Shown here: positions 17,177-37,479 of the stretch, piece by piece
How the letters are laid out: the number at the start of each line of letters is the position of its first letter
Numbering within the stretch: position 1 is the first letter of the stretch
From: a virus
DNA: 37,479 nucleotides
Virus record (IMG/VR): IMGVR_UViG_3300045107_000834
Span: 1 to 37,479 of that record
Direction: 5' to 3' (one strand)
The notes under the pieces: generated by a model
What the model was told of the DNA's origin: nothing
The model's input: the letters and a program-made list of their open reading frames with translations, nothing else
Database searches by the model: none
Program-made: the position numbers and the translations under genes

Positions 17177-17206
17177 GGCTCGGCCCGCGACGCGGTGGGC
17201 CGAGCC
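17177..17206 (+). terminator. Terminator-like hairpin before the D12 methylase
   Basis: GGCTCGGCCC (17177-17186) pairs perfectly with GGGCCGAGCC (17197-17206) around a 10-base loop, then TTCGCC. It lies 36 bases past the small membrane protein gene. Its location argues that the methylase starts downstream of it, at 17237. Confidence 0.6.
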
Positions 17207-17236
17207 TTCGCCACCCCTGGCCCCTGCACGTGCCCT

Positions 17237-18037
17237 ATGGCATCCGCCCGTCCCCCGCGTCCCGTCGTGCCGCTCCGCGGCGCGGCCCCGTACCAAGGCG
17301 GCAAGCGCAACCTCGCGCGCCGCATCCTGCCTCGCCTCGAGGCGATCCCCCACCAGTGTTACGCCGAGCCCTTCGTGGGCATGGGGGGCATCTTCTTCCG
17401 GCGGCGCCAGGCGGCGCCGCTCGAGGTCGTCAACGATCGCTCGCGCGACGTCGCGACCTTCTTCCGCGTGCTCCAGCGACACTACGTGCCCTTCCTCGAG
17501 ATGCTGCGCTGGCAGCTCACGGTGCGGACCGAGTTCGAGCGGCTCGTGGCCACCGATCCGGAGACGCTCACGGATCTCGAGCGCGCGGCGCGGTTCTACT
17601 ACCTGCAGCGGACGGCGTTCGGGGGGAAGGTGGCGGTGCGCTCGTTCGGCGTGAGCCCGACGACGCCGGCGCGCTTCGACCTCACGCGGCTCGTTCCCGA
17701 GCTCGAGGCGCTGCACCTGCGGCTCGCCGGCGTCGTGATCGAGTGCCTGCCGTTCGCGGAGCTGCTCCGCCGGTACGATCGCCCGACCACGCTCTTCTAC
17801 CTGGACCCGCCGTATTGGGGCTGCGAGGGGGACTACGGCCCGCTCTTCGCGCGGTCCGACTTCGAGGCGCTGGCGGACCAGCTGGCGCGGCTCAAGGGGC
17901 GCTTCCTGCTCTCGCTCAACGACGTGCCGGAGGTGCGGGCGACGTTCAAGCGGTTCAAGATCGAGCGGGTGGAGACGACCTACACGCTGGGGGTGCAGGC
18001 GGCGCAGCGGGTGGGGGAGGTGCTGATCTGCGCCTGA
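17237..18037 (+). CDS. D12-class DNA adenine methyltransferase (Dam-like)
   Basis: A 266-residue N6-adenine methyltransferase of the alpha (D12/Dam) class. The motif order is X then I then IV: PYQGGKRNLARR (18-29), SAM site AEPFVGMGG (43-51), acidic NDRSRDV (66-72), and the catalytic FYLDPPYW (187-194, DPPY at 190-193). Phage copies usually protect DNA from host restriction or alter regulation; the recognition site cannot be told from sequence. I used ATG 17237 rather than an upstream start inside a hairpin. It ends 3 bases from the oppositely directed methylase gene. Confidence 0.93.
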   Translation: MASARPPRPVVPLRGAAPYQGGKRNLARRILPRLEAIPHQCYAEPFVGMGGIFFRRRQAAPLEVVNDRSRDVATFFRVLQRHYVPFLEMLRWQLTVRTEFERLVATDPETLTDLERAARFYYLQRTAFGGKVAVRSFGVSPTTPARFDLTRLVPELEALHLRLAGVVIECLPFAELLRRYDRPTTLFYLDPPYWGCEGDYGPLFARSDFEALADQLARLKGRFLLSLNDVPEVRATFKRFKIERVETTYTLGVQAAQRVGEVLICA

Positions 18038-18040
18038 AAG

Positions 18041-19738
18041 TTACCCTTGAAGAGGCAATGTCCCCTGATGCTCCCAGCTGAGCGGCTTCACTCGAGCAGG
18101 CGTTTCGAACGGCCGTCCATCGAGCAGGTCCCTGACAGTGCGGATCTGCAGGCGCGGATATCTAACACCAGAATATGTGTACATGCCGGCCTTGGCGGCC
18201 TCTTCCAACATGCCCTTCGTTGGCTTGCCAAGGCAGATGAATCCCGCCATCTCGGTGGAGTCTCGCTCGAGTACGCCTCGCAGTTCGCGGATATGCGCGG
18301 GTTGCAAGTGCGATCCCCCCTTGACGGAGATCACCATGTTGCGGAGACCGGACTTGGTCTCGAAGTACAAGCGACCGTCGATGCCGTGGTCACCGGAGGA
18401 GCGGTTGTTGCAGAAGCCGCCCGCCTTCTCCACAACCCAGTGTTGGAACTGTCGGGGGTCCCGCTCGAAGAGATCCTGTGCTGATTCGACGCTCTGAGGC
18501 ACGCCTCCGATCAAGTATTGCTCCCCGTCGAGCAGGCCGTATCGCTGCTGCAGTACGTCGCGCACGATTTGCACCGAGAGGATCGCTATGTCGCAGCCGA
18601 TCCATCTGCGACCGTTGAGGTGCGCGGCGTAGATCGCCGTGCCACAACCGCAGAATGGATCGAGCACAACATCGCCAGGGTTGCTCGAAGCCTTCACGAT
18701 TCGATCGAGCAGGGCGAGGGGCTTCTGCGTCGGATATCCCAAGCGCTCCGTCCCGAGGTTGTGGATCGGCTTGATGTCTGTCCAGATGTCCTGAAGGGGG
18801 ACACCCGGAAGATCACTCAGGTACTGCTTGAGGCGAGGCATTCCGCCGCGGGCGCGCGGCCAGTGAATGCGGCCCAGTGCGTCGAGGCGCTCGAGTTCGG
18901 ATGGCGGATATGCCCAGTGTCGCCCCTTCGCGGTAACGTCAAGGTCGCGCCATGGCTTCCCAGTCTCGCCATTTCGAGTTCCTGCGCCGGTTAAGTCCAT
19001 CCGCTTCCAGCGCCGCCCGTCCGCATCTTCATGATCGAAGAACGTCTCTATGTAATCGGGATCGTATGGCTGGTAGAGCGGGTTCCAAGTGAAGCGCTCA
19101 GTCTTCGTGTAATACAAGAGGACGTCATGCACCGGGCCGTACTTCTTCGCGCTGCTATGGGCGCTAGTTCGCTTCCAGACGATTTCACTCCGGAAGTTGG
19201 TGTGACCGAAGACGGCGTCCATCATCACCTTGATGTAGTGACTCGCCGCGGGGTCGCAGTGCAAGTAGATCGACCCCGTCGGCTTCAGCACTCGCCGCAT
19301 CTCGAACAGGCGGTAGGTCATGTACAGCAGATAGGCGAGCAGCCGCGGCTCGCTGTTCCGTAGAGCTTTGATCCACGCGTTCCAGAAGATCACGACATCA
19401 TCCGCGACATCATACTTCCGGAGCTCAACGTTCAAGTTTCGCGCCAGCTCCTCCTTCTCTGCGTCCATCGTCCATGCGTCGCAAAACGCCTCCTCTTGTT
19501 CAGGCACCGGGAGGCCCGTGAGCTGCTTGTAGATCAGGTTGTAGGAGCGCTGGCTATTGAACGGCGGGTCGAGATATATCAGGTCCACTGAGTTCGACGA
19601 CATCGATCGAAGAACCGTCAGGTTGTCCCCGTAGAGCAACTGGTTGGGGCGATTGCCGCCCTCATAGGCTCCCGCCTCGATCAGGTGCGCCTGGTCCGGA
19701 TGGTTGCGGCGCGGGGCAGCTCGGCGACCTGGAGACAT
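18041..19738 (-). CDS. DNA methyltransferase fused to PD-(D/E)XK-like endonuclease domain
   Basis: A 565-residue protein with two parts. Residues 30-400 are a beta-class adenine-type methyltransferase: YLDPPFNSQRSYN (DPPF 57-60) comes first and the SAM-binding LDPFCGCGTA (359-368) later. Residues 420-540 are a restriction-endonuclease-like domain known at the end of such enzymes: RDPRQFQHWVVEKAG, GDHGIDGRLYFE (Asp454), then MVISVKGG (Ser471, Lys473). The usual acidic residue before V-K is Ser here, common in this subfamily. It could be a one-protein restriction-modification enzyme. Base use is visibly less GC-rich than the neighbouring phage genes. Start ATG 19738 is preferred over an Arg-rich extension to 19870. 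Confidence 0.9.
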   Translation of the reverse strand: MSPGRRAAPRRNHPDQAHLIEAGAYEGGNRPNQLLYGDNLTVLRSMSSNSVDLIYLDPPFNSQRSYNLIYKQLTGLPVPEQEEAFCDAWTMDAEKEELARNLNVELRKYDVADDVVIFWNAWIKALRNSEPRLLAYLLYMTYRLFEMRRVLKPTGSIYLHCDPAASHYIKVMMDAVFGHTNFRSEIVWKRTSAHSSAKKYGPVHDVLLYYTKTERFTWNPLYQPYDPDYIETFFDHEDADGRRWKRMDLTGAGTRNGETGKPWRDLDVTAKGRHWAYPPSELERLDALGRIHWPRARGGMPRLKQYLSDLPGVPLQDIWTDIKPIHNLGTERLGYPTQKPLALLDRIVKASSNPGDVVLDPFCGCGTAIYAAHLNGRRWIGCDIAILSVQIVRDVLQQRYGLLDGEQYLIGGVPQSVESAQDLFERDPRQFQHWVVEKAGGFCNNRSSGDHGIDGRLYFETKSGLRNMVISVKGGSHLQPAHIRELRGVLERDSTEMAGFICLGKPTKGMLEEAAKAGMYTYSGVRYPRLQIRTVRDLLDGRPFETPARVKPLSWEHQGTLPLQG

Positions 19739-19859
19739 GCTGTTTTCAGGGCGAAAGACGCGGCGAGTTCGGAAGGGGGAACAGCGCGACGAGATAGTAC
19801 CGCGGGGACCATGGCGCCGCGAGAACCCCCGGAACCGCCTAATCGCCCCTAGGACGCCC

Positions 19860-19903
19860 GATCGCCCCACCGGTGCCCCCTCGGGCCCAGCCGGGGGGCG
19901 ATC
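19860..19903. repeat. Inverted repeat with GATCGCCCC arms
   Basis: GATCGCCCC (19860-19868) and GGGGCGATC (19895-19903) are exact reverse complements with a GC-rich 26-base centre that can pair further (ACCGG with CCGG). It could insulate the leftward methyltransferase transcript from the late promoter region, or bind a regulator. Confidence 0.5.
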
Positions 19904-25527: not shown

Positions 25528-26370
25528 GTGGCCGCGGCCCCCTGGACGACCCCCGACCTCAAGCGACGCTGCGTCGAACTGCGCGAAGATCTCGCGCAGG
25601 GCGGCGCCGCGTCGGCCGAGGAGCTCGCCGCCTACTGGCCCGGCGGCGCTGAGAACACGTACGGCGGCCGCGGGGGCTGGATCTACTGCTACTCGCAGCT
25701 GTCACGATTCGTGGCGCGCCTCGAGCGCCGCGCACCCGGCTCGGACGCATCGATCGCGCGGGATGATGCGCGCGTGCTCGCCGCGCTCCGCGGCGCGCCC
25801 GTCGCGGTCACGGCGCTCGGGCCGCGCGCAGATGGCACCGCGTGGCAGGTGCACCCCAAGTCGTTCGAGGCGCTGCTCTACCTGCACGCGCTCGACGCCC
25901 AGCTCGGCTACGCCCTCGCCGCCAAACAGCGCTTCGATGCCGCGCTGCTCGCGGGGTTGCTGGATGCCGCCACCGCGGCACAGCTGCCCACGATCGCGGC
26001 GACGGTGAGCGAGCTGCAGCTGCTCTGCTGCTGGATCGTGACGACCCCGGGCCCGGGCGTGCCCGAGGGCGCGCGCGCACTCGAGCCCGCGATCCCGGCC
26101 GAACTCCGCGCGCTCGACGCCGTGGCCATCCTCGCCCTGGTGCGCGCCCATCAGCAGCTGCTGGGCCGCGCGCACGTCGTGCGCGCGCTCATCGACGAAG
26201 CGACCGAGCACGAGAGCGGCCAGCGGCCCAGCTGGTCGCTCTTCCTGGGCTCGCTCGCGGTCGAGTGGGGCGAAGACGCCGGCGTGCTGGCGCGCCAGCG
26301 CACGCTCGAGTCCCTCCTCGCCACGGCGCGCCTGGGTGCCGCGGCGCGGCGGCCGCCGGAGACCGACTAG
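25528..26370 (+). CDS. Hypothetical, tail-assembly-chaperone position
   Basis: A 280-residue, mostly helical Ala/Leu-rich protein starting at GTG 25528. It sits between the tube and tape measure, where tail-assembly chaperones are encoded, but no two-part frameshift arrangement is visible and no known chaperone motif was recognised. Its stop TAG overlaps the GTG of the tape measure by one base. A scaffold or chaperone role is inference only. Confidence 0.7.
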   Translation: MAAAPWTTPDLKRRCVELREDLAQGGAASAEELAAYWPGGAENTYGGRGGWIYCYSQLSRFVARLERRAPGSDASIARDDARVLAALRGAPVAVTALGPRADGTAWQVHPKSFEALLYLHALDAQLGYALAAKQRFDAALLAGLLDAATAAQLPTIAATVSELQLLCCWIVTTPGPGVPEGARALEPAIPAELRALDAVAILALVRAHQQLLGRAHVVRALIDEATEHESGQRPSWSLFLGSLAVEWGEDAGVLARQRTLESLLATARLGAAARRPPETD

Positions 26371-29300
26371 TGGCGGAGAGCGGTCGGATCGGGCGCGCGT
26401 TCGTCGAGCTCGAGGCTCGCACCACGGGCTTTCAACAGGGCTTTGATGACGCCCAGGATCGCCTCGCGAAGGCGGCCGAGTTCGTGAAGGGCGCGCCCAC
26501 GCTCGCGTTCGCCGCGCTCGCCGCGACGATCGGTGCGATCGGCGTCGAGGCCGTGAAGATGGCCGGCGAGGTGGATGGCGCGCTGCGGCGCGTCGTGGCC
26601 GCCGCGCCCGAATCCGCGCGCGACCTGGGCAAGGTGCGGGACGCGGTGCGCGCGATCTCGATCGAGTCGGGGCAGACGCAGGAAGCGCTCGCCGGCGTCG
26701 CCGCGCGGCTCGCGGAGATGGGCGAGCACGACCCAGGCGCCCTGGCCGATGATCTCAAGACCGTGAGCGAGATCGCCGAGGCGAGCGGCCAGTCGCTCGA
26801 TCGGGTGGCCGAGGGCCTCGACGCGATCGGGGATGCCTACCGGCTCGACGCGCGGGCTGCACGCGACGCGCTCGTCGAGATCGCCGCAATCGCGCAGGGC
26901 AAGATTGGCCTGGACGAAGTGCTGAGCGTCATCGAGCGCAACGGCTCCGCGCTCGCCGCGCTCAAGATCAAGGCGACCGACGCGGCCGCGGCGATGGCCA
27001 CGCTGATCGATGCCGGCGTGCCCAAGCGGAAGGCCGGGTCGCTCCTCGAGTCCGTGCTCGCCCAGGCGGACGCGGCGGCCAAGGAGGGCGCGAGCGGCAC
27101 GCGGCAGCAGTACGAGGCCGCGCAGCAGCTGCTTGCAAGCATCAACCCCGCGACGCTCGCCGCGAAGGGACTCACGGGCGCGCTGGTGGATCTCGGACAG
27201 CGCGCCAGCGGGAGCGCCGAGCAGCTCAAGCGCATGGGCTTCTCGCTCGATGAAGCCAACGCGATCCTGCGCCTGTCGAGCGCGGCCGCGACGGACACGC
27301 GCACCGCGCACGAGAAGCTCGCCGATGCCCAGGCGAAGATCTCGGCGGCCGCCACGGTCAACCGCGGCTCGGCCGAAGGGCTCGCCAAGGTGCTGAAGGC
27401 CGAACTCGCGGCCTCGATGATCGACTTGGGCAACATCGCCCTCCCCGCCGTGATCGGCGGGCTGCGGATGATGGTGGACCTGATGAACCCCGCCGGCGCG
27501 GCCGCGCAGGCGCTCACCGATCGCATCGGTACCCTCGCCGAGGCGGCGCGGCGCTCGCCCCGCGGCATCGTCGACCGCAACACGGCCGAGGGGCGCGCGA
27601 CGCGCGACGCGTTCTTCTCGGTCCGCGATCAGTTCACGACGAAGGGCGCGGGGTTCCTGAGCGAACTCGATACCGGCACGCTCGACAAGCTGCTCGTGGC
27701 CTACGCGCGCTATGGGCAGGCCACCAACGGGCTGCTCAAGACCGACATGGACATCGTGGCGGCGATCTCCGCCGTCGTGCAGGCGCGACGCACGGAGGCC
27801 GCGGAGACGGCCGCGGCCGCCGACGCGGACGAGAAGGCGGCCACGAAGAAGGCGAACACGGCGGCGATCGAGCTCGAGCGGAAGCGCGCCAAGCAGGAGC
27901 TCGCCACGTCGCGCAGCCTCGAGAGCAGCGTGTCGGGGGCGCTCGCGCAATACGTGGCGCCCTCGGTTGAGGCCGCGCAGCGCGCGATCGACTTGCAGGT
28001 GGCGGGGTGGCGCGCCATGGCCGAGGAGCTCGCGCCCAAGCTCAAGAAGGAAGCGAACGAGCTCGCCGACAAGTTCGCATACATCGCCGGCGTCCTGGCG
28101 CCCATCAAGCAGGATCTCGGCAACGCGGCCGACGAGTTCGCGAAGTTCCAGCAGGGGCTGGAGCTGCGTCAGGTGGGCAACGCGTCCGGCGTACTCGGGC
28201 CCGAGACGTTCGCGCAGCTCGACGTGATGATCGCGCGGGTCAACACTGACCTCGCCTTCATGCGTCAGGTGGGTGCCGAGGGCTCCGCCGAATGGAAGGC
28301 CGCCGAGCAGCTGCTCAACCAGCTCTATGCGGCGCGGCGCGGCCTTATCGAGAAGAACGTCGACGCGCGGCTCAAGGAAGCGACCGCTGGGCAGAAGGCG
28401 CTCGAGCAGCTCCAGCTGCAGGCGCTCACGCTCCAGCAGTCCGTCCAGGGCGCGCTCCAGCTCGCGGCCGCGATGGGGCTCGTCGATCAGAAGACGGCGG
28501 GGATCCTCGGGAGCCTGACGCAGGTCGGGACCAACCTGCCGATCCTCATCAAGCAGATCGACCTCTTCTCCACGACCTCGCAGGATCCGACGAAGGGCAT
28601 CTGGGGAGCCCTCTCAGGTGTTGTGGGGTCCGCCCTGCCGGTGATCGGCGGCATTGCGAGCCTGCTGGGCGGGCTGTTCGCGGACGACCCGCAGGTGGCG
28701 GCAAATCGCAAGGCGCAAGAGGACAACACACGTGCGCTGCAAGAGCTCGCGCGCAACATCGGCGATCTCGCGTCCTCCACCACGCCGGGCTCGAAGCTCG
28801 GTGCCGCGTTCAAGGTCGCCGCTGGCGCCGGAGAGCCCGGGCGGAACGTGCTCACGCTCCCGGGCGGATCGCGCGTCGACCTTGGGCTCGATCCGCAGTG
28901 GGCCGTCAAGCTCAGTCAGGCCTTCCGCAACGCCGGCCTCTCGGATGCCGATATCAACGAGCTGGCGAAGTCGCTTGGCATCACGCTGAACAACTCGTCC
29001 GAGGCGTGGAAGGCGTTCGTCGATGCGCTAAGGAGCGCCGACCTCCAAGGGTACGCGGATACCTTCGCTGGCTCGATGAAGAAGCTGCAAGACTCGTTCG
29101 ACGTCTACAACATCACCGATCCGGCGGAGAAGCTGCGTCGTACCATCGCGGCGCTCAGCGACAAGAAGACCGGCATCCCGGGGATCGGCACGGCGCTTGC
29201 CGGCCTGGACCTGTCGAACCAGAGCGATCGCGCGGCGGCCATCGAGCGCCTGCAGGGTCTCTTTGAGGCGCTCGCCAACGGGACGATCGACAAGTCGCTG

Positions 29301-29759
29301 ATCGGCGACGTCCTCGGTGGCGCCGACCTCGCGGACGCCCTCGACGCGATCAAGAACCTCCTCGGCCAGCTGCGCGGCGATGGATCCGCCTCAGCCACGG
29401 GCACGGGCGGCACGACGGTCAACCGCCAGGTGACCGAGGTGACCGCGAACCGCCTCGTCGCCGTCCTCGACGACTCGCGGACCTTCCTCGAGCGGATCGC
29501 CTTCAACACCGACGCGCTTCGCCCGGGAGCGCTGCCGCCGCTCCTGCCGCCGTCGCTCGGCGCCGCTGGCGCACTCACCGGCACGGTCATTCAGATCTCG
29601 ATCCCGGTGACGGTGGTCGTGGGCGCGGGCAGCGATCCCGGCGCGGTGGGCACGGCGATCGGCGCGGCGGCCGGCGCCGCGGCCGCGCAGCAGCTCGGGC
29701 GCATCTTCGGCAACGACCTCGCGCTGCGCGCCGCCGCGATCGGCGCGCGGGTGGGCTAG
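26370..29759 (+). CDS. Tail tape measure protein
   Basis: An 1129-residue protein whose length fits a long siphovirus tail. It has Ala-rich helical repeats, a hydrophobic N-terminal stretch (TLAFAALAATIGAIGVEAV, about 37-55), heptad-rich coiled coils in the middle (IELERKRAKQELATSRSLES), a membrane-like segment near 750-770 (VGSALPVIGGIASLLGGLF) and a Gly/Ala hydrophobic C-terminus. Tape measures set tail length and help DNA enter the cell. The start is GTG 26370, overlapping the preceding stop; a longer reading upstream is a shadow. Confidence 0.9.
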   Translation: MAESGRIGRAFVELEARTTGFQQGFDDAQDRLAKAAEFVKGAPTLAFAALAATIGAIGVEAVKMAGEVDGALRRVVAAAPESARDLGKVRDAVRAISIESGQTQEALAGVAARLAEMGEHDPGALADDLKTVSEIAEASGQSLDRVAEGLDAIGDAYRLDARAARDALVEIAAIAQGKIGLDEVLSVIERNGSALAALKIKATDAAAAMATLIDAGVPKRKAGSLLESVLAQADAAAKEGASGTRQQYEAAQQLLASINPATLAAKGLTGALVDLGQRASGSAEQLKRMGFSLDEANAILRLSSAAATDTRTAHEKLADAQAKISAAATVNRGSAEGLAKVLKAELAASMIDLGNIALPAVIGGLRMMVDLMNPAGAAAQALTDRIGTLAEAARRSPRGIVDRNTAEGRATRDAFFSVRDQFTTKGAGFLSELDTGTLDKLLVAYARYGQATNGLLKTDMDIVAAISAVVQARRTEAAETAAAADADEKAATKKANTAAIELERKRAKQELATSRSLESSVSGALAQYVAPSVEAAQRAIDLQVAGWRAMAEELAPKLKKEANELADKFAYIAGVLAPIKQDLGNAADEFAKFQQGLELRQVGNASGVLGPETFAQLDVMIARVNTDLAFMRQVGAEGSAEWKAAEQLLNQLYAARRGLIEKNVDARLKEATAGQKALEQLQLQALTLQQSVQGALQLAAAMGLVDQKTAGILGSLTQVGTNLPILIKQIDLFSTTSQDPTKGIWGALSGVVGSALPVIGGIASLLGGLFADDPQVAANRKAQEDNTRALQELARNIGDLASSTTPGSKLGAAFKVAAGAGEPGRNVLTLPGGSRVDLGLDPQWAVKLSQAFRNAGLSDADINELAKSLGITLNNSSEAWKAFVDALRSADLQGYADTFAGSMKKLQDSFDVYNITDPAEKLRRTIAALSDKKTGIPGIGTALAGLDLSNQSDRAAAIERLQGLFEALANGTIDKSLIGDVLGGADLADALDAIKNLLGQLRGDGSASATGTGGTTVNRQVTEVTANRLVAVLDDSRTFLERIAFNTDALRPGALPPLLPPSLGAAGALTGTVIQISIPVTVVVGAGSDPGAVGTAIGAAAGAAAAQQLGRIFGNDLALRAAAIGARVG

Positions 29760-29763
29760 CGCC

Positions 29764-30582
29764 ATGTGCAAGGGGCTCCTCTTCGACGGCAACGACGCCG
29801 TGGCCACCTTCGGGCTCTTCGTGGCCACGTGGGGCGGCTACCGCGACAGCCCCGCGTGGAGCTACCCGACGGTCGTCGTGCCCGGGCGCGCGGGGGAAGT
29901 GCTCACGGATCCCGTGGCGCGCGAGAAGGCGCTGGGCGTCACGCTGCAGGGCACGATCATCGGCAAGGATGCCGCGACGACGCGCACCTTCCTCGACAAG
30001 CTGCAGTGGCTGGCGGCGCGCGCGAGCGTGCGGCTCACGCTGCCGGACGACCCGACGCGCGAGCTCGTCTGCAAGCCGACGAGTTGTGTGGTCCCGCCCA
30101 GCGTGGCCCGCGTCGTCGGCCGCGAGCTACCCGTGACGCTCACGCTGCTCGCGCTCGAGCCTTACAAGCGCGACACGACCGACCAAGTGGTGACGCCGGC
30201 GCCGTCCGGGGCGGCGAGCATGGCGCTCGTCGGCACGGGCCCGGTGCGGCCCAAGCTGACGATGACGGCCACCGCGGCGTGCAACGGCGCCAACTGGAAC
30301 CTCTACGACAACGTCGGCGTGCTCCGCGGCTCGATCGGCACCACCGGCGCGCTCGTGAACGGCGACGTCGTGGTGATCGACTGTGACGCGCGCACGATCA
30401 CCAAGAATGGGGCGGACTACATCGCCGCCCTCCTCTATGGGGACTTCCTCGAGATCCGCCCGGAGTACTCTGACCAGATCGGGACGGCGGCGCTCAACCT
30501 CCGCATGCCGTCGATCGCCTGCGGCTGGACGTCGGGCACGGGGGGTACGGGCGAAGCGCGCTACCGGAGGCGCTGGCGGTGA
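29764..30582 (+). CDS. Distal tail (Dit)-like protein
   Basis: A 272-residue protein between tape measure and tip, the Dit position. The N-terminal half has the Dit-like pattern (SYPTVVVPGRAGEVLTDP, LGVTLQGTIIGKDAATTRTF, LDKLQWLA, VRLTLPDDPTRELVCKP). The C-terminal half is a galectin-like beta sandwich (RPKLTMTATAACNG, DVVVIDCDARTITKNGADY). In siphoviruses it forms the hub ring that holds the tip. ATG 29764 is 4 bases past the tape-measure stop. Confidence 0.75.
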   Translation: MCKGLLFDGNDAVATFGLFVATWGGYRDSPAWSYPTVVVPGRAGEVLTDPVAREKALGVTLQGTIIGKDAATTRTFLDKLQWLAARASVRLTLPDDPTRELVCKPTSCVVPPSVARVVGRELPVTLTLLALEPYKRDTTDQVVTPAPSGAASMALVGTGPVRPKLTMTATAACNGANWNLYDNVGVLRGSIGTTGALVNGDVVVIDCDARTITKNGADYIAALLYGDFLEIRPEYSDQIGTAALNLRMPSIACGWTSGTGGTGEARYRRRWR

Positions 30583-33500
30583 CCGTCCTCACTGCGCTCT
30601 GGTGCTCGCGCCTCGAGGTGTGGTCGGACCTGCAGTGCGCCGGCGGCACGCGGCTCGCCGTGCTGCAGCCGCCCGCGGCCGCGCTGGCGCGCGTCGAGCT
30701 CGCGGGCGACGACCGGATCACCGTCACGCTGCCGCTGTCGGAGCCCAAGCTGACAACGGTGGTCGAGCAGCGCGTGCTGCGCGTCGTGGACGTGCTCACG
30801 AACAGCTTCGACGAGTGGGTGATCCGCCAGCGCACCGATGATGCGACGGGCGCGAGCGTCCAGGTCGTCGCGCTGGCGCCGCTCTCGCGCCTGGGCACGG
30901 CGCTGCCCGTGTACCGCGTCGTGGGCTCGCGGCTCGAAATGGACCTCGACTACGTCAGCCGCACGCCGAGCGACATCGCCGGCACGATCATCGCGCAGGC
31001 GCAGACGCAAGGCCTGCCGTGGGTGTCACTCGGCACGGTCGATCCCACCGTCGCGCTCACGATCTCGGCCGCGTGGGAGTCGCCGCTCGCGGTGCTGCGG
31101 CGCCTCGCCGATGCGGCCGGCGCCGAGCTGCAGCTCCGACGAAACGGCACCGCCGGCTACCTCCTCGATCTCCTGACGCAGCGCGGATCGACCGCGCACA
31201 ATCTCGACCTCCGCTACGGGAAGAACCTGCCCGTGCACGTGGCCGCGCGCGACGCGACGCGCCAGTGCACGCGCCTGGTCGGCAAGGGCGCCTCTACCGA
31301 TGGGCTCGCGGCGGGCCTCGGCAGCAACATGTGGCTCGTGACGGCGATCGCGGCGGGCTGGGTGACGCTCGCGGATCCGGCCGGTGGCGATCCGCCGATC
31401 GCGTTCGACACGCAGTTGAACGGCCGCTATCTGGTGGGCCCCACCGGGGCGCTCGGCCTCATCAACGGCAGCCGCGTGGCGACGCAGGACGTGCAGGCCA
31501 CCGTCGCCGGGCTGTCCGTCGGGGATCTCTGCCGCGTCGCCTCCGATGGTTCCGGCGCCGAGCTCGTGTGGCTGAGCGAGCCGGCGGCCGAGACGCTGTA
31601 CGGCGCCACAACGCCCGTGTATCAGGTCCTCGAGCGCAGCGACATCCCAGACGTCGTCAACCGCATCAAGAACCCCTGCTTCCGCACGTGGCCGGGCGGC
31701 GTCAACACGATCCCGCCGGGCTGGGCGATCGTGAACGGCGGCACGATCACCCGGGTGAGCGTGGCGCCCTATGTGAAGTACGGGCCCAACAGCGCGCAGG
31801 TGGTGGCGAGCAACGACGGCAACGGCCTGGTCACCGACGGCTGGTTCCTCGCGCTCGGGTTCACCGCCGAGCGCCCCTACGCGAGCGGGCACGTCGCCGT
31901 GTGGGTCGTCACGGGGCAAGTGCGCGTCGAGCTGGTCATCACGACCGCGACGGCCACGATCGTGCGACCGGTGGGCACGCTGGCCACCTCCTCGCAGCAG
32001 GGCCAGTGGATCGACGTGCTCGGCGTGGCGGGCGAGGAAGTCTTCTCGCTCGCGCCGACCTCGATCCAGCTGCGCATCGTGCAGCACGGGCCCACGCCGG
32101 CGACCTTCTACGTGGGCGGCGTGCAGGGGGTGAACGGCGCGGCGCTCGAGACGTGGGTCGAGGGGAGCGGCGGCACGCAGCTGTGGCAGCAGGTCAACCG
32201 CGCGCTCGTGAAGGGCGCGGCGCGGCCGAGCGTGACCTACCGCGTCGGCTTCCTCGATCTCGCGCGGCTCGATCCCGTGACCTGGGCGGGCGACACGACC
32301 CCGACGCTGGGCGGCCCGGTGGTGCTCACCGACCCGCGCCTGGGTGTCGCGATCACCACGCGCCTGACGGCGCTCGAGCGCGACTACGTGGTCCGCGGCG
32401 GCGGCGCGCTCGAGTGCGCGACGCAGCCCTTCGATCTCAACCGTTACCTGCTCGGCAGCGCGGCCGCGGAGCGCGCAGCCGCGCGGGAGGCTGCGCCGGT
32501 GGCGCCCGCGCCCGCCGACAACGCGGCCGCGGCGACGCGCGTCGGTCGGCAGATCTTGAGCAACCCCGACTTCCTGCTGGGCACCACGGGCTACGGCGTC
32601 TACGACAACAACTTCACCGGCCGCGTCTCGCACACGATCGAGACCGACGCCACCGCGCCGAACACGAGTGGCAAGGTGCTGCGCATCGACGTCGCGGCCG
32701 GCGCCGGCGTCATCAGCCCGGGACTCGGCGGCGCGGTCCGCGGCATCCCGGTCGACGGCGGCAGTTACGCGCTCGACACCTACCACAAGGGCGCGACGCT
32801 CCTCGTGCGACTCCGCGCGAAGATCCCCGTGGGCTTAGCGCTGCAGTACCAGAACAACGCGTTCGGCGCGGAAGGGACGCTGGAGTATTTGACACCACTC
32901 GCCGGCACAGGGCAGTGGACCGAGTACGTGATCCGCCAGGTGATCGGGGTGACCGGCACCTTCTCGACGATCGGCCACTTCAACCTGGTGTCGTTCACCA
33001 CCGCGGCCGTCACCTGGCGCATCGCGGGCTGGTGGATGCACGACCTCGGGCAGATCGAGGCACCGCAGGTGGGCGTGGACCTCGGCACGGGCAAGGTGGA
33101 CGCCGGCGTCGCCACGAGCTCGGGGGGAGGGATCTTCGTCAAGAGTGGGCCGGGCACGCCCAACACCCTGGACGGCATCCCGAACGGCGCCACCTATGGG
33201 CGCCCCGTGCTCACGGCGCTCTCGAGCGGCTTCATCGATCTCGCGGCCGCGGGCGTGATCGGCACCGTTGACCAGACCAAGATCGCGGCCGACGCGGTCG
33301 TCGCGGGCAAGATCGCGGCGCTCGCCGTGCGGGCGCGCGAGCTCGCGATCGGGGCGCAGTTCCAGTTCCGGAACACGGCCAGCGGCCAGCAGATGGTGCT
33401 CAACACCGACGGCACGCTGTCGCGCTCGAGCACGAGCCCGAACGCGAATGACACGCGCTGGGTGGCCGACGATCAGAACAACTATGGGTCGAGCGAGCCC

Positions 33501-35117
33501 GTGGTGCAGGCGAGCGGTCGCGTCCGCAACGCGGCGAGCTACGCCTACGGCGTCGTGCTCGGACTCGCCAATCCCTGGGCGACGAGCGGCCAGAATGGGC
33601 TCCTCTGGTGGCGCCCGAACGGCACGCAGCTGCAGCTCTATCCCGTGACCGGCGTGGGCGTGCTCGGCACGCCCGTCACCTACAGCGCCGCGCTGGCGAG
33701 CGGCGATGAGCGCCTCACGATCATTCGGAACAACACGCTCCCGGCGGACAACATCCGGCTGCGCCTCTACGCGAACGGCACGCTCATCGCCTCGTACACC
33801 GACGCGCAGCTCACGACGGCGTTCGGCGCCGGCTGGGCGGGCGCGCAGGGCGGCTATGTCGCGCTGATGCTGGGTGACACCACGATGAGCATCAGCGAGC
33901 TCGTCGTGGGGCCCGGGCGCACCCTCATCACAGACGGCAGCGTGCGGACGCGGCACCTCGCGGCCGACACGCTCCAGACGACGAACTATGCCGAGGACGG
34001 CTCGGGGAACCCGACGGCCGGGGCGAAGCTCGACGCCTATGGGACGGCCGCGAAGATCGCCCCCGATGGATTGAAGGTCGGTCAATACCTCTTCAAGGAC
34101 GCGTGGTTCCGCGCCTTGAACGCGCTCGCGAGCTCCGGCGTGGCGGGCACCGATCGCACCTGGTACCGCGGCAACAACGACGAGGCCACGAAGGGTGGCG
34201 CGCCCGCGATCGCGCGGCTGACCGTGACGCCGCAGCTCTGGGACACGACGCTGCAGGCGATCCGCCTCGAGCTGAAGCTTCACGCGACGGCCAACACCGA
34301 CAACCTCGACGGGATGCGGGTCGCGAAGGTGGTGCTCTATCGCGCGACGGCGCGCGGCTCACCGTACACCCTGAGCGCCGCGCTTGCGACGTTCTGGATC
34401 CCGCTGGCCGATCGCCTCTACAACACGCCCGGCAACGACGCGGCCGTCGCGAACGATGTGATCGTCACGAGCACGCAGGTCGACAACGGGATCTCGACCG
34501 GCTACCCGGCGATGGAGATCACGCTCTACAACGCCGCGGGCCCGTCGGATACGAACTGCTACGGCCCGCCCGGGGGCTGGACGCCGGGCACCGCGCTCAC
34601 GAACCATGGCACCACGTGGCCGGCCGGTGGATCCGGTGGTGCGGGCGGCGGTGCTGGCGGCGGCGGCGGGAGTGGCGGCACCTGCGTGACGATCGACACG
34701 CCGGTGCTACTGGCCGATGGCACCACGAAGCGCGCCGACGAAATCCGCGTGGGCGACCGCCTGCGCACCATGCACGAGGACGGGCTGCATTGGGGCCTGC
34801 ATGCCGTGACGGCGGCCGCCATCGCCTCTGCCGAGGAGCTGGTCGTGGTCCGCCTGCGCGATGACCGCGACCTCTTCTGCACCCCCGCACATCGGCTCTA
34901 CGTGCGGCGCCGCGGCAGCACGAGCCCGTTCGGCTGGTGCGAGGCGCGCGCGCTCGAGCCGGGCGACATCATCGCGGGCCGTCCAGCGGGCATCGTGCGG
35001 CGCCTCGTCGCGCTGGGCGCGGATTTTCGCGGAGCCGAAGTCGTGAAGCTCACCGTCGAGGGGGCGCACACCTACGTCAGCGCCGGCCTGCTCTCTCACA
35101 ACATCAAGTACAACTAG
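30579..35117 (+). CDS. Large tail tip/fibre protein with C-terminal Hint (intein-like) domain
   Basis: A 1512-residue protein in the tail-tip position. Residues 1-350 resemble a baseplate hub/Tal head (LKLTTVVEQRVLRVV-type strands; VSRTPSDIAGTIIAQAQ). Two jelly-roll carbohydrate-binding-like domains follow (about 365-535 and 660-825), then a lectin-like beta domain (about 930-1110), a fibre-like region (1110-1340) and a Gly-rich linker (about 1347-1367). The end, residues 1369-1508, is a complete Hint domain: Cys1369 with VTIDTPVLLADG, the block-B TPAH (1435-1438) and the terminal LLSHN (His1507-Asn1508), followed only by IKYN. GTG start 30579 overlaps the previous stop. It should cut itself after assembly or bind to host surfaces. 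Confidence 0.88.
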   Translation: MTVLTALWCSRLEVWSDLQCAGGTRLAVLQPPAAALARVELAGDDRITVTLPLSEPKLTTVVEQRVLRVVDVLTNSFDEWVIRQRTDDATGASVQVVALAPLSRLGTALPVYRVVGSRLEMDLDYVSRTPSDIAGTIIAQAQTQGLPWVSLGTVDPTVALTISAAWESPLAVLRRLADAAGAELQLRRNGTAGYLLDLLTQRGSTAHNLDLRYGKNLPVHVAARDATRQCTRLVGKGASTDGLAAGLGSNMWLVTAIAAGWVTLADPAGGDPPIAFDTQLNGRYLVGPTGALGLINGSRVATQDVQATVAGLSVGDLCRVASDGSGAELVWLSEPAAETLYGATTPVYQVLERSDIPDVVNRIKNPCFRTWPGGVNTIPPGWAIVNGGTITRVSVAPYVKYGPNSAQVVASNDGNGLVTDGWFLALGFTAERPYASGHVAVWVVTGQVRVELVITTATATIVRPVGTLATSSQQGQWIDVLGVAGEEVFSLAPTSIQLRIVQHGPTPATFYVGGVQGVNGAALETWVEGSGGTQLWQQVNRALVKGAARPSVTYRVGFLDLARLDPVTWAGDTTPTLGGPVVLTDPRLGVAITTRLTALERDYVVRGGGALECATQPFDLNRYLLGSAAAERAAAREAAPVAPAPADNAAAATRVGRQILSNPDFLLGTTGYGVYDNNFTGRVSHTIETDATAPNTSGKVLRIDVAAGAGVISPGLGGAVRGIPVDGGSYALDTYHKGATLLVRLRAKIPVGLALQYQNNAFGAEGTLEYLTPLAGTGQWTEYVIRQVIGVTGTFSTIGHFNLVSFTTAAVTWRIAGWWMHDLGQIEAPQVGVDLGTGKVDAGVATSSGGGIFVKSGPGTPNTLDGIPNGATYGRPVLTALSSGFIDLAAAGVIGTVDQTKIAADAVVAGKIAALAVRARELAIGAQFQFRNTASGQQMVLNTDGTLSRSSTSPNANDTRWVADDQNNYGSSEPVVQASGRVRNAASYAYGVVLGLANPWATSGQNGLLWWRPNGTQLQLYPVTGVGVLGTPVTYSAALASGDERLTIIRNNTLPADNIRLRLYANGTLIASYTDAQLTTAFGAGWAGAQGGYVALMLGDTTMSISELVVGPGRTLITDGSVRTRHLAADTLQTTNYAEDGSGNPTAGAKLDAYGTAAKIAPDGLKVGQYLFKDAWFRALNALASSGVAGTDRTWYRGNNDEATKGGAPAIARLTVTPQLWDTTLQAIRLELKLHATANTDNLDGMRVAKVVLYRATARGSPYTLSAALATFWIPLADRLYNTPGNDAAVANDVIVTSTQVDNGISTGYPAMEITLYNAAGPSDTNCYGPPGGWTPGTALTNHGTTWPAGGSGGAGGGAGGGGGSGGTCVTIDTPVLLADGTTKRADEIRVGDRLRTMHEDGLHWGLHAVTAAAIASAEELVVVRLRDDRDLFCTPAHRLYVRRRGSTSPFGWCEARALEPGDIIAGRPAGIVRRLVALGADFRGAEVVKLTVEGAHTYVSAGLLSHNIKYN

Positions 35118-35127
35118 GAGGCGATCG

Positions 35128-35682
35128 ATGCGGCCAGCGGAGATGACCGATGACGTGACGGGGGCGTGGCTCGATCGCGCCACGCCGCCGTGCGCGTGCA
35201 CGTTGATGGTCGCGCTCGCACCCGAAGCCGCGCGCCGCGGGCAGGCCGTGCAGCTGCCGGAGCCGCAGTTCACGCCGCTCCTCAACCGGATCGCGATGCT
35301 GCGGCGGCCATCGATCGAGGTCAGCGCCGACACGCTCGATCGACTCTTGGCGGCCGACGAGGCGACGCTCGCGCGGGCGTTCGCCTGCGTGCGCGCCCAG
35401 CGCATCGAGGAGCGCGAGCCCGGCTACGCCTACGCGCTCACGCGCGACGAGATCGCGATCGCGATGGCGTGCGCGACCGCGACGGCGGAGGCGCCCTGGC
35501 CCCACCTCGTGCTCGACGTCGAGGAGGTGGCGGCGCTCGAGGCGTATCTCGAGGTGATCGGCCGTGAGCCGCCGGAGCCGCCGATGCCGGTGATGCCGCC
35601 GAGCGGTGAGGCGCTCGCGGCCGAGACGCAGAGCGTCGAGTCGCTGGCGCTCGAGGCGGTGGAGGTGCCCCATGGGACGTGA
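35128..35682 (+). CDS. Hypothetical protein after the tip gene
   Basis: A 184-residue acidic, helical protein with an excellent ribosome site (AGGAGG just upstream of ATG 35128). No family was recognised. The region SADTLDRLLAADEATLARAF and DEIAIAMACATATAE are helix-like, and the tail end is Pro/Glu-rich. It could be a chaperone or a tip/fibre accessory protein, given that it follows the Hint-tailed tip gene immediately; no function is claimed. Confidence 0.7.
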   Translation: MRPAEMTDDVTGAWLDRATPPCACTLMVALAPEAARRGQAVQLPEPQFTPLLNRIAMLRRPSIEVSADTLDRLLAADEATLARAFACVRAQRIEEREPGYAYALTRDEIAIAMACATATAEAPWPHLVLDVEEVAALEAYLEVIGREPPEPPMPVMPPSGEALAAETQSVESLALEAVEVPHGT

Positions 35683-35971
35683 CAAGATCGCGCATGCCGT
35701 CTTCTCGGCCGTCGCCGCCTGGTGCGTCGGCTGCATCGGCTTCGCCGCGCTCGGCGGGCACGCCTGGCAGTGGGCGTGGCTGGTGCTGATCCCGGGCGCC
35801 GTGCGCGAACTCGCGCAGCTGGGCACGACGCGCAGCGGCTGGCTGCTGATCTGGGCGTCGCGCTCGGCATGGACGCGCTGGATGATCGGCACGCCCGAGT
35901 GGGGCGACATGGCCGCGAACACGATCGGCACCTTCGCCGGGTCCGCGATCCTGCAGGCGGTGCTTTCGTGA
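35672..35971 (+). CDS. Small VanZ-like membrane protein
   Basis: A 99-residue membrane protein. It carries the sparse VanZ-type pattern: DKIAHA at the N-terminus, a membrane helix (VAAWCVGCIGFAALGG), REL-Q (VRELAQL), and D-x-x-A-N-x-x-G-x-x-x-G near the end (DMAANTIGTFAG). VanZ-like proteins are integral membrane proteins, some giving glycopeptide resistance; small phage versions have no established role. It overlaps the preceding gene by 11 bases and the next by one. Confidence 0.75.
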   Translation: MGRDKIAHAVFSAVAAWCVGCIGFAALGGHAWQWAWLVLIPGAVRELAQLGTTRSGWLLIWASRSAWTRWMIGTPEWGDMAANTIGTFAGSAILQAVLS

Positions 35972-36564
35972 TGCGTCGCGCCCTGAACGTTCTCCTCGTG
36001 GCCGCTCCGCTCACGCTCCTCGTGTTCGGCTGGCTCGCCTGGGAACACCACCAGGCGGCGACGGGCGCCGTGCGCGCGAGCTCGCTGCGCGAGTTCGCGA
36101 AGGACTCCGCGCGCGTGTACCGCGGCAAGGCCGTGGCGGCGGAGGCGGCGACGAAGGTGCTCGTGCGCGAGGCGCAGGCTGTGGCACCGCGTGCGCGCGC
36201 GGCCGCGGAGCGCGCCACGGCGCTCGATTCGCTCGTGCGGATCGTCCGCCCAGGCCTCATCCGCGTCACGGGTGAACCGGCCCCGACGCCGGTGCCCGTG
36301 TGGCTGACCGAGGACCTTGAGGCGAACCGCGCGGCGCGTGCGATCGCGGACAGCCTCGCCGCCGTGCAAGCGGCGGCCCTCACGACCGCGGCCGCAGGAA
36401 CCGATGCGCGCGAGCGCAGCGCCGCGGCCGATTCGGTCGGCGATGTAGCAGCCACGGCGGAACGCCGAGAGCTGGAGCGCGGCCGCTGGGCGGAACGGGC
36501 GCTGTGGCTCACCATCACCGGCACGGCGATCGCGATCGCGATCGCGGCCAGCAAGTCTCACTAA
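35971..36564 (+). CDS. Membrane-anchored coiled-coil protein, spanin-like
   Basis: A 197-residue protein with an N-terminal membrane helix (VLLVAAPLTLLVFGWLAW), a long charged helical middle rich in Ala/Arg/Glu, and a second hydrophobic helix near the C-terminus (LWLTITGTAIAIAIAA). This Rz-like shape suggests an inner-membrane spanin, but two helices at opposite ends are unusual and no outer partner was seen. ATG 35971 overlaps the previous stop (TGATG). The coding stretch is alternative-start sensitive, but this start is coupled. Confidence 0.65.
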   Translation: MRRALNVLLVAAPLTLLVFGWLAWEHHQAATGAVRASSLREFAKDSARVYRGKAVAAEAATKVLVREAQAVAPRARAAAERATALDSLVRIVRPGLIRVTGEPAPTPVPVWLTEDLEANRAARAIADSLAAVQAAALTTAAAGTDARERSAAADSVGDVAATAERRELERGRWAERALWLTITGTAIAIAIAASKSH

Positions 36565-36580
36565 CGATCGAGGTCGCCCC

Positions 36581-37009
36581 ATGCCGTACACCGACGTTGC
36601 CACCGACTCGTTCGAGTCGGATATCCTCCAGACCATCAACACCGCACTCGGCGCCGGCGGCGTGGCACTCGCCGCGTGGGACGCCTACGCGGGGCTGCTC
36701 TCTGCGGTGACCGACGCGGAAGCCGCGACCTTCACCGAGATCACCGGCGCGAACGGCCTCGCGCGCCAGCAGTTCACGCGCACGGCCGTGTCGCAGGTCT
36801 CGGGGGCCGGTGAGGTGAGCAACTCGGCGCAGATCAACTTCGGCACGTTCACCGGTGGCGCGGCCGTCACCGCGACGCACGTGATCCTGGCGACGGCCGC
36901 GGCCGGCGGCACGACCCGCGTCGTGTGCCAGCTCGAGAATCCGGTGACGATCAATCCGAACGATCCGGTGATCTTCCCGGTCAACCAGCTCAAGCTGCGG
37001 GTGAGCTGA
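36581..37009 (+). CDS. Phage tail-fibre-like beta protein
   Basis: A 142-residue protein that follows the layout of small phage tail-fibre or tail-tip proteins: LSAVTDAEAATFTEITGANG and LARQQFTRTAV, then SNSAQINFGTFTGGAAVTAT and HVILATAAAGG, and VTINPNDPVIFPVNQLKLRV at the end. These proteins are short beta structures that recur in tail regions. It ends overlapping the start of the last gene. The specific role is not certain. Confidence 0.75.
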   Translation: MPYTDVATDSFESDILQTINTALGAGGVALAAWDAYAGLLSAVTDAEAATFTEITGANGLARQQFTRTAVSQVSGAGEVSNSAQINFGTFTGGAAVTATHVILATAAAGGTTRVVCQLENPVTINPNDPVIFPVNQLKLRVS

Positions 37010-37479
37010 TGAGCGCCCTCGCCTGGACGTGCGTGTACGACCCGGCCGCTGGGGACGACCTGATCTCGGTCGGGGAGACGACGCAGCTCGAGCGCGACGG
37101 GCTCGTCGCGCGGGGGCTCGGCGTCGTCGTGGTGGCGACGGAGCCCGACTTCGGGATCCAGCAGTGGGACGCGGCGACGCGCATGCTCGTGGCGATCGCA
37201 CCGCCGCCCGTGCGGCGCATCACGCCGGCGGCCTTTCGCGAACGCTTCACCGCGGCGGAACGCATCCAGTTCGAGATGTTGACGGTGCAGACCGACATGA
37301 CCGGCGCGGTTGCGCGCGACTTGAAGGCGGACCTCGCTGCCAATCCCGTGGTGAACCTCGATGCGTCGAAGGTCGCGGCCGCGCTCGCATGGATGCGGAG
37401 CGTCGGCGTGCTGCAGTCGGATGCGCGCATCGCGGAGCTCACCGTCGACGGCACCCTCTCCGAGGCGATTGCCCCGTGA
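37009..37479 (+). CDS. Tail-fibre-region accessory protein
   Basis: A 156-residue protein with the RRITPAAFRERFTAAERIQFE segment and helical follow-up (LKADLAANPVVNLDASK, AALAWMRSVGVL) seen in small proteins at the end of phage tail clusters. The first 65 residues are a beta region (LISVGETTQLERDGLVARGL). ATG 37009 overlaps the previous stop. The gene is complete: the stop is the last codon of the window. Function is unproven. Confidence 0.72.
   Translation: MSALAWTCVYDPAAGDDLISVGETTQLERDGLVARGLGVVVVATEPDFGIQQWDAATRMLVAIAPPPVRRITPAAFRERFTAAERIQFEMLTVQTDMTGAVARDLKADLAANPVVNLDASKVAAALAWMRSVGVLQSDARIAELTVDGTLSEAIAP

Follow-up and report, generated by a model that had tools for sequence, protein, structure and literature searches.

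The window (the whole 37,479-nucleotide stretch of virus record IMGVR_UViG_3300045107_000834) encodes a 1512-residue tail-tip protein ending in a Hint domain, which is probably an autoprocessing domain resembling the A-type bacterial intein-like (BIL) domains, set on a flexible Gly-rich stalk. We favor this explanation because of the dN/dS of 0.12 within the family, the quality of the structural model (pLDDT 93.9), the structural and profile matches to BILs, the Lys conserved just after the domain, and the precedent of the BILs already described. The domain belongs to a large, apparently undescribed Hint family, carried by tail proteins in many uncultured phages, which spans siphovirus-, podovirus-, and T4-like tail genes. 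Hint chemistry itself is well known from inteins, hedgehog proteins, and secreted toxins.

The Hint domain and its carrier gene

The carrier gene (30579–35117, + strand) is an intact open reading frame (ORF) of 1512 residues with a GTG start, which lies within the stop of the gene directly upstream. That gene encodes the distal tail protein (Dit; 29764–30582, + strand; phrog_33, E = 4.3e-14) and follows the tape-measure protein ORF (25842–29759, + strand; phrog_28, E = 7.7e-11), whose real start is probably 3′ of 25842. The carrier itself gave weak matches to tail and minor head proteins in the PHROG search (phrog_1067, phrog_3475, and phrog_5911, in residues 38–243 and 649–827) and to Prophage_tail in Pfam (PF06605, E = 0.007). 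Its designation as a tail-tip (Tal/J-like) protein is therefore sound mainly by position, just after the Dit and tape-measure genes. The next gene (35128–35682, + strand; 184 residues), whose product is a conceivable partner of the carrier, had no match in the PHROG search, to tail fibers or otherwise. A search for relatives of the carrier detected none except on one identical contig: positions 26683–37479 of the window are identical over 10,797 bases to IMGVR_UViG_3300045256_000839 (17,315 bp), which is therefore not an independent relative.

Elsewhere in the window, a convergent pair of ORFs (17195–18037, + strand, and 18041–19870, − strand) comprises a phrog_67 DNA-methyltransferase (609 residues) and a Dam-type adenine methyltransferase-like ORF. 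An ORF resembling a head protein (36581–37009; phrog_240, E = 6e-11) lies 3′ of the tail genes rather than near the major head gene (∼21.6–22.5 kb).

The Gly-rich linker GGSGGAGGGAGGGGGSGGT (34626–34682; this and the following features are all on the + strand) ends with Thr1368, the residue at position −1, immediately before Cys1369; most members of the family likewise have a linker rich in Gly or Pro ahead of the Hint domain. The domain (residues 1369–1508, 140 amino acids; 34683–35102) begins with Cys1369 (34683–34685), the Hint Cys1 and predicted thioester-forming nucleophile, which is Cys in all 79 of the listed relatives that have a residue there. Cys1369 is followed by CVTIDTPVLLADG; DTPVLLADG lies between this Cys and TPAH. 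Next come two family signatures, TMHE (TxHE; 34767–34778; T 81/82, H 77/82, and E 81/82 among the matches listed) and WG (34791–34796; W 76/82 and G 82/82 among the matches listed), both lying within one of our search patterns, so that the high conservation of TMHE arises partly by selection. The block-B TxxH motif TPAH (34881–34892), which ends in His1438, lies outside both search patterns, with Ser or Thr at its first position and His at its last in 84/84 of the matches listed. Block F is AHTY (35064–35075), ∼95% conserved among the matches listed (A 81, H 82, T 83, and Y 79 of about 84), and block G is LSHN (35091–35102), which contains the penultimate His1507 and Asn1508 (codon 35100–35102); HN is present in 82/84 of the matches listed. 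Only the tail IKYN (35103–35114), with Lys1510 at position +2, separates Asn1508 from the stop codon, which ends at 35117.

Three Pfam models match the domain, all below Pfam's curated cut-offs: Intein_splicing (E = 5.8e-6; 26.6 bits, cut-off 35.8), Hint (E = 4e-4; 20.5 bits, cut-off 29.7), and PT-HINT (E = 8.5e-4; 20.0 bits, cut-off 27.7). A profile built on 82 relatives but not on the window scores 111 bits on the carrier ORF (E = 1.2e-31, Z = 50,000), matches that ORF alone among the 352 six-frame ORFs of the window, and matches none of 1000 shuffled copies. The original prediction of a complete Hint domain in residues 1369–1508, having Cys1, DTPVLLADG, TPAH, and His-Asn followed by IKYN only, agrees with the intact ORF, and the search of Hint and BIL profiles that it proposed returned the sub-cut-off Pfam scores and the family match just given. 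Together with the AlphaFold2 model and matches to Hint and BIL structures in the PDB (Z ∼20), these results strongly support a Hint/BIL-type domain at the C terminus of the tail-tip protein.

A family of Hint domains in uncultured phages

Single-sequence tblastn against phages and plasmids recovered almost nothing, and motif-based DNA patterns were required to detect the family. Direct protein search gave a single relative: In MT835519.1, an unannotated gut phage, the Hint domain forms the C terminus of a lambda-J-like protein and ends in LSHNIK plus a few residues. In viral contigs, the DNA pattern for HTY[VI]..G.L.HN found at least 80 stretches, mostly Hint domains in virion-type ORFs. A pattern that ignores both ends of the domain, VGDx[V]xTxHE....WG, found at least 79 stretches in viral contigs, and nearly all of the ORFs concerned also carry Cys1 and HN. 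The pooled scans comprise at least 163 domain matches, or at least 89 after reduction at 85% identity (fragments included), and at least 81 of the nonredundant relatives have a readable HN junction; this set probably does not exhaust the family. All conservation counts given here are for members that are related, and hence not independent, and two motifs served as bait. For close pairs within the family, the median dN/dS is 0.12.

Among 50,697 phage records, MT835519.1 was the only carrier found. The family is also present in the IMG/VR isolate contigs 2517093015, 2849153333, and 2828417763. Two further hits that resembled tail Hint domains were inspected and rejected: That in Escherichia phage ES is an intein of a helicase-like protein, and that in Microcystis phage Mvi-JY20 is an intein of a DNA polymerase. 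The Escherichia phage ES protein (WNO47614.1; OR466728.1, 30372–31864) is annotated as a “minor tail protein”; its helicase-like N terminus is broken by an intein fragment and its reading frame is disrupted downstream from this fragment, so the name is likely a misannotation. A scan of genome contigs with a two-sequence alignment gave only an RHS-like protein of Paractinoplanes.

None of the Pfam, NCBIfam, and PHROG models covers the family, which may be because only one carrier was found among the 50,697 phage records. PT-HINT is the most frequent Pfam match, yet it reaches E ≤ 1e-3 in only 31 of 74 members. A literature search that covered few subscription papers, and is thus no proof of absence, turned up no description of Hint domains in phage tails.

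The C-terminal junction

The original prediction noted that the residue after the terminal Asn is Ile (Ile1509) rather than the Cys, Ser, or Thr of a splicing intein. This is the rule across the family and not a quirk of one phage. Among the matches listed, position +1 in 81 relatives is Lys (32), Ile (25), Leu (12), Arg (four), Val (three), Ala (three), or Tyr (one), and the sole Ser belongs to a truncated record without a true end (L097). Of these 81 listed relatives, 75 have Lys at one or other of positions +1 and +2, against 5.6 expected from the composition of the ORFs, and 77 have Lys or Arg there; both positions lie outside the two search patterns. By contrast, in a small comparison set of five Hint domains from one Paractinoplanes genome, the +1 residue is Cys in three, Ile in one, and Gln in one, and Lys is found at neither +1 nor +2.

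The sequence that follows HN is of two kinds among the matches listed: 46 domains have 4–14 residues to the end of the protein, and 33 have 45 to 1516. The retention of HN and Lys where just 4–14 residues follow suggests that the chemistry at the C-terminal junction matters. The retained HN counts toward use of this junction because cleavage at the N-terminal junction alone needs no HN. Alternatively, the conserved Lys could merely position the scissile bond.

Predicted fold and comparison with known systems

The AlphaFold2 model of the window domain (74-sequence alignment) has a mean pLDDT of 93.9 and a pTM of 0.87. Its best structural match is BIL2 from the Tetrahymena BUBL1 polyubiquitin locus (Z = 21.6, 1.7 Å over 137 residues; Foldseek and VIA-align), followed in VIA-align by the DnaB intein (20.5), the C. 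thermocellum BIL 2lwy (19.9), and hedgehog (19.8); the RecA and DnaB inteins score Z of 20–21 against the model. The family sequence profile matches 2lwy with E = 2.8e-10 and BIL2 with E ∼1e-11. The Hint fold of the modeled domain is thus secure, but the structure does not settle the subclass, because gaps of about 1 Z are ties and true inteins and hedgehog lie within ∼1–2 Z. Entries named “Hint domain containing protein” from uncultured Caudovirales phages are among the top viral structure matches in BFVD, where the names are automatic.

On the sequence features compared, the window domain agrees with the A-type BILs and differs from class 1 inteins, Hog domains, and pretoxin HINT domains. 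With A-type BILs such as that of C. thermocellum (2lwy) it shares the Hint fold, the N-terminal Cys (Cys1369), the block-B His (of TPAH), the terminal His-Asn (His1507-Asn1508), the lack of Cys, Ser, or Thr at +1 (here Ile), and the lack of an endonuclease. Occurrence in variable proteins, another BIL trait, was seen in the family on carriers other than that of the window: The Hint domain is absent from 15 relatives of the J core of L064 and from three of 18 split tubular B loci (see below). Unlike the A-type BILs, the phage family resides on tail proteins, has its own TxHE...WG motif, and prefers Lys at +1 or +2, often with just 4–14 residues after HN; the location, the motif, and the Lys set it apart from described BILs. 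BIL2 (6y75, 6tmm) is the top structural match, and the window domain has a Lys at +2, but BIL2 is eukaryotic, is flanked by ubiquitin-like domains, and has 20% identity to the window domain.

Class 1 mini-inteins (Ssp DnaB, Mtu RecA) share the fold and blocks A, B, F, and G. They differ from the phage domain, which has no +1 nucleophile (Ile1509), is followed by four residues rather than a sizeable C-extein, and sits in variable tail regions rather than at conserved sites of housekeeping enzymes. In contrast to hedgehog Hog domains, the window ORF has no sterol-recognition region and ends four residues past Asn1508. Pretoxin HINT (PT-HINT, PF07591) matches weakly in profile, as given above, but no toxin domain lies downstream in the window ORF, where there are only those four residues.

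Carriers and mobility of the module

The carriers identified by PHROG include lambda-J-like proteins (phrog_31, phrog_5616), tail proteins (phrog_1101/4271), tail tubular protein B (phrog_376), a tail assembly protein (phrog_32), tail fibers, and a large T4-like structural protein (phrog_358); several other carriers had no match in this search. In L079 and L082, the Hint domain is on the phrog_32 tail assembly protein directly 5′ of the J gene, whose product starts MGGSSGGKGEGG.

Many unrelated carriers emerge when the proteins are grouped by their N-terminal parts. For 35 of 77 Hint domains, the closest relative belongs to a different carrier group, an upper figure because some carrier groups are fragments of the same kind. 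In clear cases across carriers, Hint domains reach 57% identity between L036 (J-like) and L029 (tubular B), and also between L032 (tubular B) and L091 (J-like group). The module has moved between unrelated tail genes. It is also dispensable as well as mobile, because close relatives of two carriers are without it. The J core of L064 has 15 other relatives (72% to 36% identity), all without the Hint domain and with a short C terminus or long fiber-like regions instead; in L179 and L186, two of the 15, the end is truncated or disrupted. A J core 54% identical to that of L005 occurs in Microcystis phage Mae-JY04, again without the Hint domain.

The gene for tail tubular protein B is broken exactly at the position of the Hint domain. 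The first ORF comprises phrog_376 positions 2–109, then a Pro/Gly-rich stalk and the Hint domain; the second starts at −3 or 0 nt, begins M[SG][VIG]AR[ILV]Y, and covers phrog_376 positions 102–707. In BPP-1 (bbp13) and in Caulobacter, Pseudomonas, and Pelagibacter phages, the protein is encoded by one unsplit ORF. A separate scan for the start of the second ORF gave 18 split loci, 15 with a Hint domain upstream and three (L162, L165, and L170) with the same split and stalk and a short tail in its place. The split is thus independent of the Hint domain, and rejoining of the halves by it is therefore less likely.

The split tubular B (nozzle) loci, with two overlapping ORFs, include L020, L029, L032, L071, L074, L076, L081, L124, L137, and others, and the split site is the loop where other phages have an FCCH-like insert. 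We rejected a programmed frameshift joining the two ORFs: Their relation is −1, but no common slippery site was visible by eye, and other carriers have no such −1 arrangement. Limnohabitans phage DC33 (PQ492659.1) is filed under Inoviridae, yet its 39 kb encode a podovirus-type tail tubular protein B, and its taxonomy looks wrong.

In the T4-like protein phrog_358, the Hint domain occurs at a single spot, just before profile position 1417, within one 2890-residue ORF in L085 and in the second of two ORFs in L061. Two adjacent ORFs near the Hint domain represent phrog_358 in L061 (3716–13064, − strand), L093, L139, and L090.

Mechanism and alternative explanations

The window domain has all the residues for thioester formation and Asn cyclization. 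We consider its catalytic competence highly probable, because Cys1, the block-B His, and HN are near-invariant and are kept also among matches to the pattern that excludes them. In Hint chemistry, Cys1 makes a thioester with the preceding residue, and Asn cyclization cuts the C-terminal bond (PMC4031507). In the window protein, Cys1369 would attack the carbonyl of Thr1368 to give a thioester at Thr1368-Cys1369, and Asn1508 could cyclize and release IKYN. The thioester would then be resolved by water, giving cleavage, or by an amine. This amine could be the new N terminus of the freed IKYN, giving splicing with ...GGT-IKYN as the product; the side chain of a Lys, for instance the one conserved at +1/+2; or one on a neighboring protein. 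By every route, the Hint domain would leave the tail.

The domain therefore need not be confined to cutting. Without a +1 nucleophile no branched intermediate forms, but A-type BILs can use the amine exposed on the released C-terminal segment to attack the thioester; in those with His-Asn and no +1 nucleophile, splicing is a minor route and cleavage dominates (PMC4031507). Tetrahymena BIL2 is reported to splice by forming an isopeptide with the side chain of a Lys (PMC8616854), and the family-wide conservation of Lys at +1/+2 would fit this type of isopeptide formation. The original prediction was that the domain cuts itself but does not splice. The active-site residues for cutting are in place, but the exclusion of splicing is too strong, because A-type BILs without a +1 nucleophile do splice and BIL2 splices to Lys; a tenable wording is that the domain cuts, and may join to an amine. 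Very probably, then, it would cut its own chain and might rejoin it. That amine transfer, and not plain hydrolysis, is the physiological route we propose only tentatively.

Plain autocleavage, in which the Hint domain would be removed hydrolytically as a cap and the stalk matured with nothing joined, is possible if doubtful. It accords with the dominance of cleavage products in characterized BILs (PMC4031507) and with the split loci that share the Pro/Gly-rich stalk and a short tail without the Hint domain, where a Hint-free stalk is evidently viable, but it leaves HN and the +1/+2 Lys unexplained where just 4–14 residues follow. Ligation in trans, which the original prediction also offered as an alternative, would instead join the carrier by its thioester to a second protein, such as the one encoded by the next gene, to form a two-gene covalent tail tip. 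Such a role could account for the break of the tubular B gene exactly at the Hint domain, where cultured relatives such as BPP-1 have one ORF, and BIL2 is reported to conjugate its cargo to other proteins (PMC8616854). We nevertheless hold it unlikely: The three Hint-less split loci indicate that rejoining is unnecessary for the split protein, the genes after J-like carriers are varied, and the window's next gene has no tail-fiber match.

The near-invariant catalytic residues and the dN/dS of ∼0.12 make it very unlikely that the domain is a former intein, no longer reactive and now a structural cap, despite two degenerate copies in the tandem protein of L102. Covalent adhesion, in which the thioester would react with a host-surface amine or hydroxyl and anchor the phage (compare hedgehog and cholesterol), is also very unlikely. 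In its favor, most carriers that could be identified are tail proteins, some of which are distal, and in L132 the Hint domain ends a full-length J. Yet transfer of the hedgehog type needs no HN, and the family retains it; the domain has no sterol- or lipid-binding extension after it; and self-processing would usually take place inside the producing cell, before host contact. Hedgehog-like lipid transfer was rejected, there being no room for a lipid-binding region.

If the A-type-BIL-like autoprocessing domain that we prefer is active, the tail proteins of many environmental phages would differ from their genes, being cut or having a C terminus that is reactive or ligated. A bolder and rather unlikely proposal is that the family glues tail proteins covalently, the Cys1 thioester passing to the amine of the conserved Lys in an ATP-free ligation at the tail tip by a module that moves between unrelated tail genes. 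The conserved Lys is a directly testable prediction, and the family is a possible source of new ligation tools that do not require a +1 cysteine.

Tandem arrangements also occur. L102 encodes a protein with four tandem Hint domains (residues 330–936 of the ORF), and L025, L045, L099, and L125 are further cases. In L102, one copy is without HN (LLSRTVK) but keeps Cys1, and the next is without Cys1 but keeps HN; these complementary lesions could give one N-cleaving and one C-cleaving unit. The degenerate copies show that some Hint domains can be lost.
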